From Antedon mediterranea (Eukaryota; Echinodermata; Crinoidea; Comatulida; Antedonidae), in the NCBI RefSeq assembly GCF_964355755.1, contig NC_092676.1:3020288-3084287 (forward strand): a DNA stretch of 64,000 nt, given 5' to 3'. The translations under genes and the position numbers were made by a program. Positions 40,522 to 52,297 of this stretch are shown here, piece by piece. Under the pieces are notes generated by a model. It made no database searches. It worked only from the letters and a program-made list of their open reading frames with translations, and was not told where the DNA came from. Position 1 is the stretch's first letter. Each line of letters begins with the position of its first letter.

Positions 40522-43500
40522 CTAGTCAACATCCATGGCAGCCGTTATAGCCCCCTCAAGTGATGTAATTATTGCTAGTTTGTTGCTATAGCTACATGCA
40601 GAACAAACCCATTTCCTTTTTGGTGTTGTCATGGAAAAGACGTTCTGATTGTCTGCAAGTACAAACAAAAAATAATGTAAGCATTAAATTTGGATAACCC
40701 ATCACTTGTGATTGGTCACTTAGTTTTGGAATGCACTTATTGTTATCAGTTTTTGTATGCAAATATTGTAATATGCAATATTTTCTAGGCCTTTGTTCAA
40801 CTTCAATCTGTATTTTATATTTACGATTTCTTACATCCTTATGTTACATCCTAGTGGAACCAGGAATGTTAAAAATCTTGAAAAGATTCTTTGAGTTTGT
40901 AAAATAATTTTGAAAAGAAAACAAGAGAATGGGAAAGAGCTTTATATGCTTTAAGGGTTGTTAAGGAAGCACAAATTAACTAATTACGACTTCTATTTAG
41001 GTGTAACAACTTGCTTTTGTTATAGTAATTGACCATAAATTTCAACAAAAGAAACAATTTACACCTAATTCCTCAAACTTAAAGATGCATTGTCTCCCTG
41101 AAAAAAATAATTCTTAAACATTTTTTTTTTGACTCTATGTTAATTTTATATACCTAAAAACAACTATAATTTAAAGAAAAAAATAGTCAACTTGGCTGCC
41201 AGCCAATACATTTTTGGTTGAATTAACTGTTTATTTTGTCATTCTTTTTTTATGTTTTCTTTTCTACGAAAGTGCATAATTTTATTAAAACTACCAAATA
41301 ACCTATTCAAAGTCTGATTTAATTAATCTTCATTTTTCATGTTTTTGGGGGACAATACATCTTTAAAGTGTCAAGATAATAAAACATGGTACTTACATTT
41401 GGTATCTGGCATGTCTAGTACTTTAAGTTTGGTAAGTGCGAGTGATGCTAAGAATGAATGCTTGACATCTATGCAACGCTCGTATGGATACGGTTTATTG
41501 GTTGTCATGGTGATCACAAGCGCATCATTAAACAAAAACAATCCTATGTTCTCAATATGTTGATACACTCTAAAAGAAAATAACGAAACAAAAAATACAT
41601 ACCAAATACAAGTTCTTCTATTGGCATTCGTAAAGATGTATTGTCCCCCTAAAAAAATAATTCTTAACAAATTTTTTGTTTTTGAATATGCAATTTTAAT
41701 GTCACCTAATAGTTATCCACTTTGACAAAAAATTGGATCGAAAAAAAAATGTATTTACCTAGAAATTTACCAAGAAATAGTCAAATTGGCTGCCAGAAAA
41801 TGGGTTTTTGGTTGAATTTAATCATTTATTTTGTCATTTTATAAGTGAAAGGCCCAGGGAGCTAATAGAAACAACCATTGCAAGGCTAACCAAATATTAT
41901 TAATTTTTTGATTATTGGGAAAGTGGCTTTGTGACATGAAATACGGTTTTGAACGATGTGAAAGCAGGCCTGACTATGTATTTTATGCTTCTCAAAAAAT
42001 TTCATCTGGTTTCAATGGATATTAAATAAGTAAAGGTTAACTTTTAGTTAAACCAGTTGACAAGTACTTACTTGCTACGTTTCAGCTACTTTCAGTAGCC
42101 TTGTTCACGCAAATGACGTTGACATGATATTCGTCATAGTTCGGTTATTTTATGATTTTTCATTTTGATGATACTAGCTTGTTTGGGTGTTTTTTTCTTT
42201 AACTGTATGGCATTTTAGGAAGTTTCAATTCAATCAAGACTTACCTACATTAAGTCTGGTGTAGGATCATTTGGAGGTGGTTAAAGACTTACCTTAATCT
42301 GGTCTTGGATAATTTGGAGGTAATTTAAAGATTTACCTTACTGTAAGTCTGGTATAGGATCATTTGGAGGTGGTTTAAAGACTTACCTTAATCTGGTCTT
42401 GGATAATTTGGAGGTAATTTAAAGATTTACCTTACTGTAAGTCTGGTATAGGATCATTTGGAGGTGGTTTAAAGACTTACCTTAAGTCTGGTCTAGGATC
42501 ATTTGGAGGTGGTTTAAAGACTTACAATAAGTCTGGTGTAGGATCATTTGGAGGTGGTTAAAGATTTACCTTAAGTCTGGTCTAGGATCATTTGGAGGTG
42601 GTTTAAAGACTTACATTAAGTCTGGTGTAGGATCATTTGGAGGTGGTTAAAGATTTACCTTAATCTGGTCTTGGATAATTTGGAGGTAATTTAAAGATTT
42701 ACCTTACTGTAAGTCTGGTCTAGGATCATTTGGAGGTGGTTTAAAGACTTACCTTAAGTCTGGTCTAGGATCATTTAGAGGTGGTTTAAAGACTTACATT
42801 AAGTCTGGTGTAGGATCATTTGGAGGTGGTTAAAGATTTACCTTAAGTCTGGTCTAGGATCATTTGGAGGTGGTTTCAAATGAGCAACAATGTCTTCTCG
42901 AATTAGAAATCTGTTAGCTTCCAGTAGATTTGGACATTTAAGAATCCTCTTCTGTAGCAATATCAGTCTGTGCTCTCTCTCACATCGGAGCTTACACTGT
43001 GGAAAATATGTATATGTAGTATTAATAGAGTAAGTATTAGCATACACATGAAACATCTATTAGTTTTCATATTGAGAAGCGCCCTCTGTAGTTTCCTTTA
43101 TTTATAACGTACTTAAACGTTAATTGGTAATAGTATACCTCATCAACAAACTTCTGAAGTTTTCCAAAAGTTTCAATGGCGCCAGCAATATCAGCACGAT
43201 CAGAGTGGTCTGGTGAAGTATGGAGCTCAAAAGCTGACAAAAGTCTTATGTACTCCTGAATCCTGCGTGTTGGTACTAACAGAAGATCCTGCAGGCTTAG
43301 CATCTTTGTCTCTGGTGTCTTGTCATGTTGTCGTAGGAAAGATCGGAATGCTGGGTGCTGTTCACGACACTAAACCAAATCAAGCAAAATACATGATAAT
43401 TTTTTGCTTAAATTATTTTTTCCAATAAAATGCAAGAGCACACACTGATTAGCTTCCAAAATGCCCCTAATTAGCTTACAAAGGACACTAATTTTACTTC

Positions 43501-46500
43501 AAAAGGGAACTAACTAGCTTAAAAAATGGCATTAACTAGCTTTCAAAAGGGCACTGAGTAATGTAGCTTCTAAAGAGGCACAAAATGCTGAATTGACAAT
43601 ATTTCTCATGCAGTCGTTTGTCTAGAGTTTCTCTTTATTATTTACTATTCGGATATAGTCTTACTCATGGTGGTATACCTCCATGGTCTTACTGAATGGT
43701 TAGCTGATATCAGTGGCTGTTTTATTACTTTACAGTACATTATTCTTGCCTGCTTTATTATTTAGCTGTCTGCACTTTATCATTTAGCTTCTTCCAAACC
43801 TTACCTTCTCAATTGTTGCAAGCACAATAGGATAGTTATTGTGAAAGTTTGTGTAAACCTTCAGTTTAGATTGCATCTTGATGAAGGCATCTCCAAGGCA
43901 TTGGTGAGGTCCCCACTCATCTAAACGTGATTTCAGGTCAGCAACAAAATCACTATAGTTTACAAAGAAAGGTGTTCAATGTATTGTACGAATTTTTTTG
44001 GATGATTTAAATATACCTTCATTATGAAATACCCTACTGTACTATAATAGTAAACTTTTCCAAGACTTGGCTTCGAGGAAACTTCCCAAATCCACTTAAT
44101 TTCCATTTAAATATTCTTAAAATGTATTTGAAATTAAATATGCAAGTTTTGATATACAAAATATAAACAAGAATATAGCTATCAAAAGAGTTGAATTTGA
44201 ATCATTTAAACAATTCAAGTGAAACATTCTTCACTGAACTTACAAAATAAAAAAATCCTACAGAAGATGTAGATGACATTGATACCACATGCCTCATTCT
44301 CACCTTGTTACTTTTAAGATGTTGATCATATCAGAAAATATCATTTGCAAGTTTGGTTGGTTTATGATAGCATGGTTCGTCTTCAGTGCTGCTTGTAGAG
44401 GCCTTACGTATACATCTTTAACCGTCCTTAATAAATTCAGGTATGTCCGCTCAGTGTACAAAATTTCTCGTGCTATACGAGTCCTTATTTCTGGCTGGAA
44501 TTCCGTACCAGCATTTTGGATTCCATTCTATGAGAAGATACATAGTATTGTTTAGTTGGAACATTATTTATTTGCAGAGTTTTAAGATTTAAAAATGTGA
44601 CCTTTAGAAAAACAAGAATGGCACTCACAAGGCACCCTAGGCCTATTCAGAAAATAGACCAAAACCAAAATAACGGTGTAAAAGTCTATGTGCCTTAACA
44701 ATACACTTAATTTGCAATGACACTGAAACTATTAAACTTCAGGAAATAATGTTGGAAGATAGGCACAGCGACTTTTGCATTATATTTTCTGCTGCAGGAG
44801 TGGAAAGAGCATGTGGAACAAGTTGTAAAGCTCTGTCTACATTATCAAACTTTATACGACAACAAAATGTGATGTGCCCTTATATGAATGTGATGATGTC
44901 ATATCACTACCATATTTAGATATATTTAAAGTGTATAGACTTACATTAGGTTTTAAAATAATGCATGGCCTCTGTCCATCATCCTTTAATGAGTTTGTGA
45001 GATCAAGTGAGAGGTGTGAAGGGCGGTTAATACATTGGAAGGCAAAGACGAATACATTTTTAAATTCATCGTTTGTTATTTTCCCTAGATTATGGGAGCA
45101 ACTTCCCAATGAAATTAAACAATGTGCTACAATTTCAGACTTTAAAGCCCAACTCATCAAACATTTGATCTCAAAATATTAAGTTGTACTGTAATTGTTT
45201 ATATTGTTTATTCAATGCAGCTTATTTTTAATTGGCGTATCTCATTATAACTTTGTTTTGTTTTGTTTTATTTTGACTTAATTTGTGCTACTTAGTTTTG
45301 TTATTTTTGTATTTTATAAGTAATGATGGAGTAAGAGCAGTTTTCTGTTTGGGCTCATGCCTATTACTTGCTCCTGGCAAGATGAATTGTAAAATGTACT
45401 TTATGAACTTTTGCCGAATAAATATTATTATTATTATTATTATTATATTTGGGCACATCACACTTAAAAGGGCTTACAGAGCAGTTTAACTAACATGTTA
45501 ATATATTCAGTACAGTACAAATCTTAATAGAAAGTAAAACATTCTCACAATTCTTGTAAAAGACTTGATTGATGACGTTGAAATAGGCTGGATGTGAGCT
45601 TCTGCTAGGCTTGGCTGTGCTATCTGTACTCTTTCTTTCTTAGGGCTTCCAACTGACAATAGTTCTTCAATGTCTGAGGCTATCTCTTCAACTATATCTG
45701 AACTCTAAAAACAGGGCGAGATACAGACTTTCTAGTATACTATGCCATTTGCTTAGTATTAGTTGATTAAGCTCTGTCTACATTATCAAACTAGTTGGAT
45801 AAAAAAGTGTGCCCAAATATGATGGTATATGATGTCATCGTGTCCATATATGGGCACATCACATTTTTTGTTGTCACAAAAAGTTTGATAGAGTAGACAG
45901 AGCTAAAAGTATGTCATGACATTTGCTTAGCTTAGTTCTTGAAATACAAATCTAGCTGTTGAACAATGGTAATCTGGATGGTGCAGATCTCCAAACCATC
46001 ACAATGAGATAATATAATATTGCCATATTAAATTCGCTCTTTATATTAGAATACCAAAGACAAATATCAAGCAAAAATCTAAGAAATAATCTAATATAAT
46101 TATTTATATATTATTTAACTCACATCGTCATCTTCAATGGTTTCTGATAACTTCTTAGATTCAGTGTTTGTTGTATCCATGGTATGTATGGACTTGGCAA
46201 CTTTTACAGACTTTTGTAAGTAACTGATTAGAAATTCTAGTGGGTTTTCCTAAAAAAGCAAGAAAAAATGTATAAGGACATTGCACAGCAAGTGGATTAA
46301 AAAAAGTCGACAAAAACAAGTTTGAGATGATTCCGAAATTATGTAGCCTTGCTGAATGTGACAGATAAAACCTATGAAATATTTGACTTATTTTGATATA
46401 GATTTTGCATCTCTCATTGTCAATTTACTCTTGTTCTACGGACTGGTTTTCAACTTACAGCATTTTGATTGGCTATTTCTCTAAGGCCCTCATTCAAAAT

Positions 46501-49500
46501 AGGGGCCACATCTCATAAAAAGTCTAGTTTGAGATGATTCCGAAATTATGTAGCCTTGCTGAATGTGACAGATAAAACCTATGAAATATTTGACTTATTT
46601 TGATTTAGATTTTGCATCTCTCATTGTCAATTTACTCTTGTTCTACGGACTGGTTTACAACTTACAGCGTTTTGATTGGCTATTTCTCTTAGGCCCTCAT
46701 TCAAAATAGGGGCCACATCTCTGATACTTTGTAATTCATCAAGTCCCATTGCTCTGTAAACTAACTCTCCTGGAAAGGTAACAGAAACATAACTAATCAA
46801 GTAACAAATCAGTAAAAAATATTCAATCAATAAAAAATCATCTAATCAATAATCAATCAATCAATAACCTATCAATCAAAATCATCTAATCAATAACCTA
46901 TCAATCAAAAACCATCTAATCAATAATCTATCAATAAATAACCTATCAATAAATCATCTAATCAATAACCTATCAATCAATAACCTATCAATCAAAAATC
47001 AACTTTATTACCTGTGACCCTGTCAATCATATTTGAACTTTCCTGATTGAAATAATTCTTTACTAATTGTCTGCTAACAATTGTAGCCTCGGTAACATGT
47101 TCAGCCATGCATATCCACTCAGACAATCGTGTTGTATTGAAATACAGTGCAGGGGGAGATAGCCCATCAAATGATGTGGACCATTCACTCAAAACTATAA
47201 ATATCCAAAGCATGTAATCACTTACAGAACATTAAATTTTCGTGACATCATAACCAAATATGGGACAATTCATGTAATCTTTTTTCCCCAGGTTACACTA
47301 AAAATAATAAAAACTGTATTTTATAAATTAAAAAATAAATAAATAAAATGTTTACTAAAACTATTTTTTTTTGCATTTTTTGGTTATACAAACCTCGTGA
47401 GTAAATTGGTCCAGATACTCCAGTTGGGGCAGCAAACTCCATGTCAGTAAGGGCCTCTAGTTTCTGAAGCAAGTTTAAGCCATCCTCTACAATATAGAAA
47501 CAACAATTAGTAAAGGAGTTATTATATATCACATGTTAAACAAATTTCCAACACATCTAAATTTAAAACTGAATTGAAACAATATTACAAAATTAAACAT
47601 AGATAAATTATTATTGTGCCATTATATCAGATGTTTTGCTTATATGCTTATATATTTATGAACCCCGTCTTATAATGTTTGTTTTGTTAAAATTATAATT
47701 ACTATCTTTTTAGGGACCACATTGGAATTAAGTTGTTTTACTTTAAACGACTTTATGTGTTTTCCCGTGCATCGTCAGACTTCATTAATCCATCCATTTT
47801 TATTTGCTTTTTTGATGTATATTAATATTTAAGGTGATTTTATATATTATTGATGTATTTTTAATGTTATTTATTGAGATGCCAAATAAATGAAAGAAAG
47901 AAAAAATGTTAAAATTCAAGAAATATTATTGGTTAATAGCCATCATACTTTTTTAACCATATCCCTGCAATAGTTTTTGTCTGTCTCTATCTACACTATC
48001 AAACTTTGTGACAAAAAAAATGTGCTCATATGTGGATGATGTCATATCAATACCATATTTGGGTACAATTTCAATGATAATAGAAATATCTCTCGGGTGG
48101 TAGAGCATTTTTTAATTGAACGGATAACAGTTACACTAGCACCTAAAATTTGTCAAACAAGTATATAAAAACAAGGTTGAGACTTTACCACTTGCAGCTA
48201 GTGGTGGAAAGATATCAATGTGACCACCAAGAGAAGCTGGCAGTGTTGAAGTGGTCAAAACCTCCCAAAACTGACGTATCTCAGGGTGTTCCAGGTTGGT
48301 CAGTGTGCATGTCATGTGATGCACTAGTCTCAGTTGTCCAGGACTTCCATCAACAAAGAATCCAATACTCCTGAAAAATGAAGTTTCTGTTAAAATATGT
48401 TACTTTTTTACCATAATTATTTAAGGTGTAAAGTCATAACTTTTCAAACAAAGAAGTGCCATTTTTTGTGAGAGATTTGAGCAGAACATAAGTACACTAC
48501 CCATAAAGTCACAATCCAAAAATCTCACACAGTTTAAAATAACATGCTCCTTTATAAAACAGTATTCATCACCTGGCAATATGTAAATTGCATGCAAGTA
48601 TGCACCAATAGGAACTTACTTTGCATGTCTTCCTCTAAGTGCCTCCTCAACTTGCTGTATTAAGGATTCTAAGGTTGTTCCTTCATAGTTATACACAACT
48701 GGAATAACTCCAAATAGCACAGCACTAACAAGCACCTGGAAAAATAATGTTACGATCCCTCTTAAATAAAGAACTTCCATAACAGTGTTTAAAAAAAAAG
48801 AAAAAGCAGACTTTGTAGAAACTTAGATATTTTTACTAAAGTGTGTAAAGTGTTGGAAGAGTTGACAGTTTTTGCCTTAATTATTTAGGAATAGTAATTA
48901 TGATGTCCTGGACTTGAAGTAAAAAACCTTTCATAATTAATGTTGTTGAGTTTTGTTTATTTCGTGCTGATCATTGCAAACTTGAATATACTTAGATTAT
49001 TACCTCTCTTGCAGGAACACTAGATGAGATTAGGATTATCCTTGGATTAGGGTGACTGGGATAATTCTGATTCTGCAAATTAGTTTCCATGGTAACAGAT
49101 GAGTAATCTCCTCCTCCTGATAAATCTTTTCTGTTGAAAATGAAATAATTTAATATTTACAGAAACGAAAATACATTTTCTTTATATTGAGGTAAAATTC
49201 TATTACTTTGATTTCCAAATAATGGCACTCAAAAATACTGGTGATTCAATTTGTTATAGTCAGGAGCAAACTAATACATACCTTCTGGATATGGGTCGCT
49301 TGACAGGACCAGACCAAGACTGTTCATACACACCAGCAATGCCAATGTCTGGTCTCAAAGACTCCAGCATCATGCTCTCTGAAAGAGTGGACTGTTGTGA
49401 TCTCTGATTCAGATCAAGCTCCTCTCCAGTCTAGACAAAAAAAAAATGTATTATCAAATTATTGATTGTGTTGGGAAAGTTTTGCAGATAGTGATTCTTC

Positions 49501-52297
49501 AGATAGGTATCTCGTTTAGAAATGTATGTTAACAACTTGTTGAAATCCAACTATACCACTATCAGTGAGCGATACAAAAATCTGTCCACAATAAGCCCTT
49601 TGAAAATGCCAAATTCATTATTTAAAATTGTATGCGTATTTAACATCGAGTAACTCGCAAATTACAGGATGTAGAAACTATTTTATAATTTATCATGCTT
49701 ATAAACTAAAAAATAATAATAAACTTATATAGTCTCATTTGAGGGCTAGGGAGTGGAGTTGAAAGAGTCGTGAGTTACAACCGTGAAACTACTGTAGGTC
49801 AGGATTGAACCCTGGACCTTGGAATTAGAAAGCAATCATCTTAACCACCAAGCTACAGCTCCACTAATCTTATTAGTGACTCAAAATGGTTTTTTAGCAG
49901 TATTCATTACCGTGAATGCTCTGTGTTTGTCCTTTCTGTTTAAACCTTGAAGTCCATAATCAAACTCTCTTGAAGGCTCTGTCCATGACCTTGAATGACC
50001 TCTCCCCCCTGACATCCCCCATCGTCCAGTATGTAGATAAGCATGTGTTGGCATCGTAGGGTCATTTGGATTGACAGAGGATACCATAGCATTATAGGAC
50101 TGTTGAAGGTCAACTGGTTTGGGATCTGGATCAAGCCAAGGCCGACGATTTCCAATACTACCTGTCATAAGAATATTAATGATAGATAACTTACTAGTCA
50201 ATGATAGATAACTTACTAGTCAATGATAGATAACTTACTAGTCAATGATAGATAACTTACTAGTCAATGATAGATTACTTACTAGTCAAAAATAGATTTC
50301 TTACTAGTCGCTGTCTCTCTCTATTGTTTTTTTTTTATATCTGAGACAAAATAAATGAAATGAAAAATGAAATATTAGATTACTTACTAGTCTGCAGAAC
50401 AACTGATTGAGTCTTTCTGTGCTTTTGTTTTGACGTAACTGATATTTCCTGTTCAGTCCCATCTCCAAGTTTTCCATACACATTTGACTACAAAAAGTTA
50501 TAAAATATTTTACAAGAAACTGTTAGTAAACCAGTAAAACCAGCCTCACTAATCATAGAATGGGAACAAAACTATGTCTCTGGTTGTATGACTACCATAC
50601 AATTCAACATCAAGGAAAGAGTTTTCAAAGTGAAACTGCTGCATTTAAATGTAAAAAATGTGACCCACCTTTTCTGCATTCTGTACAACGTCTAATGTTA
50701 ATAGACAATGAATGTAATGCCTTTTCCATGCTCCAAACTCATTGTCACTGGGAGAGTATGGTAAATACCAACCAAATTTGACACATTTTGCACACCATAG
50801 ATCATCCTATATTACAAAAAGTTAAAATATTATTGTTTCAAAATCTCATATAATTAAAAAATGTGTCTCAGTTTAAAGGATAATGTTAAGCACTTTTTAC
50901 CTGTTCTGTTAAAAACTTCCAATGCCATGACACTTTACTTGCTCTGCATAGACTTCTTGGATCGAGGAAAGAAAATATGTACAGCGATAAAAACTTTGGT
51001 AAAACTGTTGTAAAATCAAGGTTTTTAACAGGAACGCTGTCTTGAAACCAACGTTGAATAAAAGAAAGTTGCGATTTTTTTGATCGATGTAGGAGAAAGT
51101 TGAAAAATCGTTTCCGTTGCGAGTCTGTCCAGAGATCAAACTGAGGTAAAAGAAAATTAAAAATTATTTTAAAATTGAAACATTTAGGCTGGTTCATGGA
51201 GTTTTTAGCTTTAAAAAAATCGAAATTATTATATTGACTGATCGATTGATGTTTGGTGTATTATTTCAGTTATCTGCTAAGTTAATAGCCTATAGATAAT
51301 CATCATAAGTTTGTATACTACACACACGATGAAATAACTATGCATTATGTATGTATGTCAAACTAAACAATAAAACAGTTTGTTTACCCTCCCAGCTCTC
51401 TTTCAGAATGGCTATGAATATACAGTAAAGCTCTGTCTACACTATCAAACTAGTTTGACAAAAAAAGTGTAATATGCCCATAAATGGTAGTGATATGCCC
51501 AAATATGGTAGTGATACAGTATAAACTAGACTTACCCAGTGAGCTACCAAGTCTCGTCTTTCAACAAAAATCTGAAAAAGTTGAAATTGTATCATTTTAA
51601 ATAATATCAAAATCCTTGTATTTGGTTCTCAAAAACTTTGTACCTTAAACACACTGGAAAATCCTATGAGCACATATCATTTTCCAATCTGTTTAAGGCT
51701 TTTAAACTTTGCAATAAATTGAAATGTAATACACAAGTTTATACAATCTGCAATCTGGAGGGGCGTACTCTATACCCATGTATTTGTACCCCCTCCTCCC
51801 CATACCATGGATCTATCTTTGATGTGTTTTCCTTAAATGATAATTAACAGATAAATGTATAACAAATTAAACAAATTTAAAATAAAAAATAGCAATTAGA
51901 ATCAAAACCAAAATGTTTAGTACGGTAGTAATTTGTTTTGCTTTTTTAGAGGACCCTCTTCTCTGCATTATTATCTTCTTTAAAAATGGTATAAATAAAT
52001 AATTTATAAATTTAAACAGATAATGAGCAAATAATAACATAAACTTGCAAGAAAAGTTGTATTAATGATATTTACTTGTTCATTTGATGGCTTATTTACT
52101 ACAGGTGTCCACTGGCTCATTTGAGTTTTCATGTTTCTTGTATGATATTGTCCGTTGGTGACTGGATTCACAACAGCAGTTTTCTTAACAGATTGCGTCA
52201 TGCGTATGGTTGGATAAGATGGTTCCTTTAGTGAAGCTATTTGCGACTTTTCTTGTGTCCTTTGGCCGTCTTTCGTAGTAGTTTTTAAAGTTGCCAT
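40522..52297 (-). CDS. ECT2L: ECT2L: F-box, RhoGEF (DH) and PH protein
   Basis: Twenty-one exons in transcript order: 52076-52297, 51536-51571, 50901-51140, 50669-50806, 50388-50487, 49911-50161, 49282-49430, 49004-49130, 48620-48735, 48189-48370, 47394-47486, 47012-47194, 46666-46769, 46124-46249, 45549-45704, 44304-44527, 43805-43952, 43139-43369, 42842-42996, 41397-41569 and 40522-40652. All junctions are GT-AG and in phase, giving 1094 residues (human about 904). The F-box is at 127-166 ([20 protein letters not shown]); the following [17 protein letters not shown] is typical of this protein. The DH domain spans about 750-930 ([35 protein letters not shown]) and the PH domain about 945-1085 ([13 protein letters not shown]). 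By family it should activate Rho GTPases and perhaps link to SCF ubiquitin ligases; both are inferred. ATG 52297 was chosen as the first in-frame ATG. Extra length lies in Ser/Pro-rich text at 213-400. Introns 5, 13 and 19 carry copies of neighbouring exon ends. Confidence 0.96.
41079..41366. mobile_element. MITE family C copy beside ECT2L exon 20
   Basis: TTAAAGATGCATTGTCTCCC to GGGGACAATACATCTTTAA, with core CTTGGCTGCCAGCCAATAC. It ends about 30 bp from exon 20 (41397) on its donor side. Confidence 0.87.
41630..41850. mobile_element. MITE family C copy, right end missing
   Basis: TAAAGATGTATTGTCCCCCT at the left, then AAAATTGGATCGAAAA and AATTGGCTGCCAGAAAATGG. It starts about 60 bp upstream (transcript sense) of ECT2L exon 20. 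Confidence 0.85.
42245..42880. repeat. minisatellite seeded from ECT2L exon 19 and its splice donor
   Basis: About 13 units of 43-50 bp fill intron 19 next to exon 19; the exon end itself is the fourteenth copy. Each unit contains TCTAGGATCATTTGGAGGTG (complement of exon codons for PPPNDPR) and TTTACCTTAAGTCTGG, the complement of the exon end plus its GTAAA donor. Most units keep a GTAAGT- or GTAAAT-like donor. In transcript sense, use of a distal donor would read through the first GTAA and hit an in-frame TAA. Confidence 0.9.
43445..43560. repeat. degenerate ~27-bp repeat in ECT2L intron 17
   Basis: Five variants of AACTAGCTTCAAAAGGGCACT. Low conservation. Confidence 0.65.
44828..45488. mobile_element. 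MITE family B split by a LINE fragment
   Basis: The left half runs 44828-44917 (AAGCTCTGTCTACATTATCA to CACTACCATATTT). The right half resumes at ATATTTGGGCACATCACAC (45445) and ends CTTACAGAGCAGTTTA. ATATTT on both sides of the insert is a candidate target duplication. Confidence 0.87.
44918..45444 (+). pseudogene. LINE 3' end fragment with TTA tail
   Basis: A frame from about 44922 to the stop at 45182 reads [20 protein letters not shown] and [20 protein letters not shown], the C-terminal RT-flank text common in LINE proteins, then [12 protein letters not shown] 3' UTR and a tail of TTA repeats (45422-45444) follow. Its tail differs from the CTTGAAT-tailed LINE, so it is a different family. 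ECT2L intron 15. Confidence 0.82.
45769..45904. mobile_element. MITE family B, full short copy
   Basis: AAGCTCTGTCTACATTATCA to AGTTTGATAGAGTAGACAGA. It starts about 65 bp from ECT2L exon 15 (45704). Confidence 0.9.
46321..46721. repeat. tandem duplication that includes the end of ECT2L exon 13
   Basis: Copies 46321-46514 and 46528-46721 (offset 207 bp) are about 96% alike. The right copy contains the real 3' part of exon 13 with its donor (exon end 46666). The left copy holds the same coding text ([17 protein letters not shown]) and donor, but lacks the exon's acceptor and 5' part. Confidence 0.9.
46795..47000. repeat. ATCAATCA/AACCTATCAATC repeat in ECT2L intron 12
   Basis: Units of about 24-33 bp such as CATCTAATCAATAACCTATC. 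The array fills the intron between exons 12 and 13 and ends 12 bp from exon 12's donor side (47012). Confidence 0.88.
47984..48070. mobile_element. MITE family B, left half
   Basis: CTCTATCTACACTATCAAAC, then ATGATGTCATATCAATACCA and TATTTGGGTACA; the right end is lost. ECT2L intron 10. Confidence 0.8.
49590..49866 (-). mobile_element. tRNA-derived SINE
   Basis: On the minus strand the head has a Pol III A box (TAGCTTGGTGGTTAAGA) and B box (GGTTCAATCC) in a tRNA-like order, followed by CCACTCCCTAGCCCTCAAAT and TTTATAAGCATGATAAATTA. The body is shared with 57385-57540. It is not a functional tRNA because the cloverleaf is degenerate. ECT2L intron 6. Confidence 0.75.
50175..50310. repeat. minisatellite seeded from the ECT2L exon 5 splice donor
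   Basis: Six units of about 22 bp. In transcript sense each holds GACTAGTAAGT, and the unit at about 50270-50288 shares 17 identical bases (GACTAGTAAGTAATCTA) with the true exon 5 end and donor at 50376-50392. The array occupies over half of the 226-nt intron 5. Confidence 0.88.
51428..51520. mobile_element. MITE family B, left half
   Basis: AAGCTCTGTCTACACTATCA, then two ATATGCCCAAATATGGTAGT variants; no right end. It ends 16 bp from ECT2L exon 2 (51536). Confidence 0.85.

Follow-up and report, generated by a model that had tools for sequence, protein, structure and literature searches.

The ECT2L orthologue on the minus strand of the window (the whole stretch of 64,000 nucleotides that was analysed) carries a tandem array that copies the end of one coding exon together with its 5' splice site. 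With a probability of roughly 80%, this array is a mirage: a minisatellite that was born by tandem duplication across an exon-intron junction, is tolerated, and leaves the first donor as the one mainly used. Judged by its sequence anatomy, it fits the definition of a kind of repeat that has already been published, and the recurrence of such arrays across the genome (a 354-Mb animal assembly in 18 contigs) is the most interesting part of the result.

The ECT2L orthologue and the exon at the edge of the array

The initial annotation had assigned the gene to ECT2L, and the assignment was confirmed: its best PDB sequence match is ECT2L (11xu, E=1.3e-83), far above ECT2 (1.3e-25). Pfam models detected an F-box-like domain (3.1e-9) and a RhoGEF domain (2.1e-38) in this one gene, which is the make-up of ECT2L. 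The F-box exon lies near 51,000, and the N-terminal pieces of the orthologue likewise match 11xu. No Pfam PH model scored above the cut-off in the orthologue; the alignment to the solved ECT2L (11xu) runs on into the PH region, and the PH assignment is based on that alignment.

The exon from which the repeat derives (42842-42996 of the window, minus strand, 155 nt) comes after the DH exons and directly before the exon that starts at 41569. It is bounded by a CACAG acceptor at 42997-43001 and a donor at 42841, ends in GACTTAAG/GTAAATC, and shares its last 35 nt with the repeat; the intron that follows is in phase 2. The next exon (41397-41569, minus strand) begins the PH region and has the acceptor ttttag/AGTGTATC. 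When these two exons are joined at the native donor, the product is in frame and aligns without a gap against LRLYEHIHDLSLFLFND of the solved ECT2L; therefore, the first donor is the true donor, as had been proposed from the first reading of the DNA. At the edge of the array, an authentic exon is present and its reading frame is intact.

Structure of the array

TRF, repeat finding and alignment placed a minisatellite of 14 units of 44-50 nt (one exonic and 13 intronic copies) at 42244-42876 on the minus strand. In each unit, roughly 35 nt from the end of the exon are followed by the 5' splice site and roughly 10 intron nt. TRF returned a 45-bp period with 13.8 copies at 42246-42876 (score 868) as well as higher-order periods of 89 and 272, and a separate repeat listing gave 14 copies. 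The count of about 13 tandem copies in the initial annotation agrees with the 13 intronic copies that lie after the native donor at 42841. Its description of the unit as exon end, donor and a few intron bases also holds, except that the exonic part had been put at only about 25 bases. The span that it gave, 42245-42996, contains a real array, of which the array proper occupies 42244-42876; positions 42877-42996 are the remaining exon.

Between 42841 and 42244 there are 18 GTAA/GTAG sites, and several copies have doublet donors. Aligned over 50 columns, the intronic copies show 80-100% identity to the exonic unit, and one of them, which ends at 42569, matches it in every column. As a sequence pattern, the repeat is far beyond chance. 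Blocks of 233 nt within the array repeat at 98% identity, which suggests recent unequal exchange. A dispersed repeat or transposon was considered as the source of the unit and was ruled out by a genome-wide search, in which the unit was found at a single locus. The unit spans the exon-intron boundary of its own gene, and the series of 14 opens with the exonic unit, which is the anatomy of a mirage. At its far end, the last unit runs into GTAAGTCTTGATTG, which may be read as the ancestral intron start.

Donor strength and predicted splicing outcome

Donors were scored with a position weight matrix in bits (human values) and by the energy of the duplex with U1; the U1 genes of this genome contain ATACTTACCTG. 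At least 42 U1 snRNA genes lie in a tandem array at G000:C5:15664856-15752909, with a spacing of mostly about 1.86 kb. The native site AAG/GTAAAT (exon/intron; 42836-42841, minus strand) reached 5.05 bits and -6.8 kcal/mol. The nearest strong copy, AAG/GTAAGT at 42747-42752 on the same strand (+89 nt), reached 8.63 bits and -10.6 kcal/mol, and the same site with the same values is found at 42480, 42386 and 42292. The last donor of the array, TAG/GTAAGT (42239-42244, minus strand), reached 7.01 bits and -10.7 kcal/mol. These five copy donors outrank the native one in both matrix score and U1 energy; since they pair better with U1, sequence strength by itself does not account for a win of the first donor.

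Folding predictions placed several strong copies within a 7-bp hairpin and left the native donor without one. RNA structure that hides the copy donors was therefore considered as the reason why the first donor wins, and was rejected: with the opening cost added, the gap became smaller, but strong copies were still ahead of the native site. Hairpins may explain the first-donor preference in part at best.

Directly after the native junction, the first intron bases include a TAA in the reading frame (AG/G TAA), so that every distal donor would yield an identical truncated protein with its stop directly after DPRPDLR. Because every copy donor meets this TAA, a protein change other than truncation is impossible. 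The earlier expectation that use of a distal donor would end the reading frame at a TAA ahead of the PH region was thus borne out, and the stop is the same from each of the copies.

Similar arrays elsewhere in the genome

When the whole genome was scanned for the pattern of three spaced AGGTAAGT words, 13 non-simple arrays were returned, the units of which are mostly unrelated (two arrays share one). Four of the 13 start exactly at recognisable coding exon ends, namely in DHX8, TDP2, HUWE1 and OTUD5. The array in DHX8, the PRP22 helicase (L040; G000:C1:17775700-17777400), has 37-nt units at the exon end LTEPPG/DILMFLTGQ; DHX8, a host of a donor array, is itself a splicing factor. In TDP2 (L043; G000:C1:41207400-41209400), 31-nt units with 27 exact donor words follow the exon end GDTNLRDSE/. 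HUWE1 (L047; G000:C9:24970500-24971700) has three donors 30 nt apart at LYNSIE/HLTTLLASS, and OTUD5 (L052; G000:C9:1703500-1705300) has 47-nt units with four donors at VFVYSL/EPINTFHG. In DHX8, HUWE1 and OTUD5, it is the first donor that yields the conserved junction; for TDP2, the upstream exon was checked. The 30-nt units of HUWE1 are open and in frame, and splicing from its copy donors would give a protein with one or two VSPFLYNSIE inserts. Boundary arrays, in short, recur in unrelated genes with unrelated units, as mirages do.

Four further arrays (L041, L046, L049 and L050) are probably located at first exons. The exon end at L041 reads ATGTCCAAAGATATTAG/, and the array of L046 has a TATA box upstream and an exon with an ATG downstream. 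L049 and L050 are paralogous loci about 23 kb apart on G000:C6; in both, an open frame that resembles a signal peptide is followed by the same 53-nt donor array. At the start of the remaining five of the 13 arrays (L042, L044, L045, L048 and L051), no clear exon was found, nor was one found at two longer-period arrays (L053 and L054). The acceptor side can also be struck: in a random 100-kb sample, an exon of a diacylglycerol kinase gene bears a boundary array on that side (76 nt x 8.1; L055:1878-2497).

The number of such arrays was compared with controls. The genome contains 12,558 occurrences of AGGTAAGT and 20,543 of the reversed word TGAATGGA; the reversed word gave roughly ten arrays among the matches listed, against 13 for AGGTAAGT at the spacing searched. 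In the random 100 kb, a strong donor word was present in one of 27 arrays, and that one was the acceptor-side mirage. Donor words in tandem arrays showed no clear excess over the reversed-word control or over shuffles in the random 100 kb. In the window, two or three of 20 arrays are boundary arrays, and boundary density predicts about one, by a rough estimate. Tandem duplication seems to strike junctions about as often as expected; given the small size of the random sample, there may still be a modest excess. It is unlikely that this genome makes junction-spanning minisatellites at a raised rate and that some of them serve as copy-number-variable splice modulators, through ECT2L dose via NMD or through in-frame 10-residue inserts in HUWE1.

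Comparison with known systems

Amphioxus mirages are tandem repeats across exon-intron boundaries in Adh3, troponin C, the globins BflGb6 and BflGb9, and PGBD5; regular splicing is said to be undisturbed in them, though many units hold AG/GT signals (PMC3087553, PMC3902484). The arrays found here are likewise minisatellite-like, carry splice signals in their copies, lie at both 5' and 3' boundaries, occur in unrelated genes of one genome, and have homogenised copies. They differ in that other genes are involved, probably in another lineage. Branchiostoma has a GC content of about 41%; that of the present genome is 33.5% in a 100-kb sample. Searches for GFP and COX1 gave no match, a result that does not show either to be absent. 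Neutrality at the RNA level and somatic instability were shown for some of the amphioxus mirages, whereas the ECT2L array is known from the DNA of one haplotype.

In the human IFI6 gene (6-16/G1P3), minisatellite units serve as extra donors, according to a later paper (PMC4526556, citing Turri et al. 1995). As far as that account goes, IFI6 resembles ECT2L in having a tandem array at an exon end with one donor per unit, the first being the standard one. It also indicates a difference: two downstream units of IFI6 are used and yield proteins, whereas each ECT2L copy donor leads to an immediate stop. Intron gain through tandem duplication of AGGT segments was reportedly described by Rogers in 1989 and by Gao and Lynch in 2009. 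An instance is known from potato RdRp (PMC4974935). Such duplication resembles the ECT2L array in that tandem duplication carries splice signals; it forms a new intron, whereas the ECT2L array lengthens an existing intron and none is formed.

Mirages provide a natural series of near-identical competing donors, in which the reason why the first donor wins over stronger downstream copies could be measured directly. They also show how tandem duplication can lengthen introns and may perhaps create new ones. Their recurrence at housekeeping genes of one genome suggests that they are an ordinary, under-annotated feature and a likely cause of gene-model errors.

Origin of the array and alternative explanations

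Slippage, or an event like it, may have started the array by duplicating a 45-nt segment (35 nt of exon and 10 nt of intron). The exon (CATTTG/AAACC) and the intron (TCTTG/ATT) have TTG in common, and slippage between the two TTG words would give a 45-nt unit. Growth by unequal exchange would then have produced the 14 units and the observed periods of 89 and 272. The copies all stand downstream of the native donor and leave the coding sequence intact. The spliceosome would mainly use the first donor, the sole one with an in-frame product; use of a copy adds the TAA directly after the junction, and such mRNA would be removed by NMD. The array would then be a length-variable neutral sequence, probably tolerated, and arrays of this kind would be kept because they do not disrupt the coding exon. 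Given the arrays at unrelated exons of this genome and the harmlessness to regular splicing reported in amphioxus, chance birth with tolerance suffices as an explanation. Low-level use of the copies, giving NMD-targeted or DH-only transcripts, is possible.

The strength of the copies, five of which surpass the native donor, gives some room to a tentative alternative, in which a sizeable share of the transcripts uses a strong copy donor (the nearest at 42752, +89 nt), meets the stop and is degraded by NMD. ECT2L output would then fall with unit number, as a by-product of a neutral array and not as an adaptation. The extra donors of IFI6 described above, as far as the source relates them, are a precedent for this; the undisturbed splicing reported for amphioxus mirages and the local hairpins around several strong copies, from which the native site is free, speak against it. 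The initial annotation suggested that the array could tune splicing or give rise to DH-only isoforms. A functional decoy series of this kind, or a stable DH-only form of ECT2L, is permitted by the anatomy, as every copy donor truncates after the DH region. However, intron retention would reach the same stop, and the array is thus not needed for it; the stop lies far upstream of later exon junctions, which predicts NMD and not a stable protein; and unrelated arrays of like kind are found at housekeeping genes. With amphioxus mirages published as harmless to regular splicing, this suggestion is not upheld and a functional role is very improbable. An assembly artefact, with an inflated unit number or a wrong order of units, is even less probable: a misassembled mirage was reported in the amphioxus draft (PMC3087553), but here the whole array of about 0.6 kb lies in a chromosome-scale assembly without a gap, and its copies have individually diverged. 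The junction-spanning minisatellite with a favoured first donor is therefore the preferred reading.

Further donor duplications within ECT2L

Two more donor duplications were found in the same gene, both on the minus strand. One, at 46319-46721 (207 nt x 1.95), takes in the final 56 nt of an exon together with the donor, with the native donor at 46665 and the copy at 46458. The other, at 50178-50309 (22 nt x 6), has units of the form GACTA/GTAAGTNATCTATCATT, which have 17 nt in common with the native junction GACTA/GTAAGTAATCTA (donor at 50387) and lie shifted by about 65 nt into the intron. Three donor duplications in ECT2L are more than the naive expectation of about one, but not strikingly so. 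Elsewhere in the gene, a 24-nt inverted repeat (96%) lies on both sides of the PH-region exon 41397-41569, at 41342-41365 and 41631-41654 of the window.
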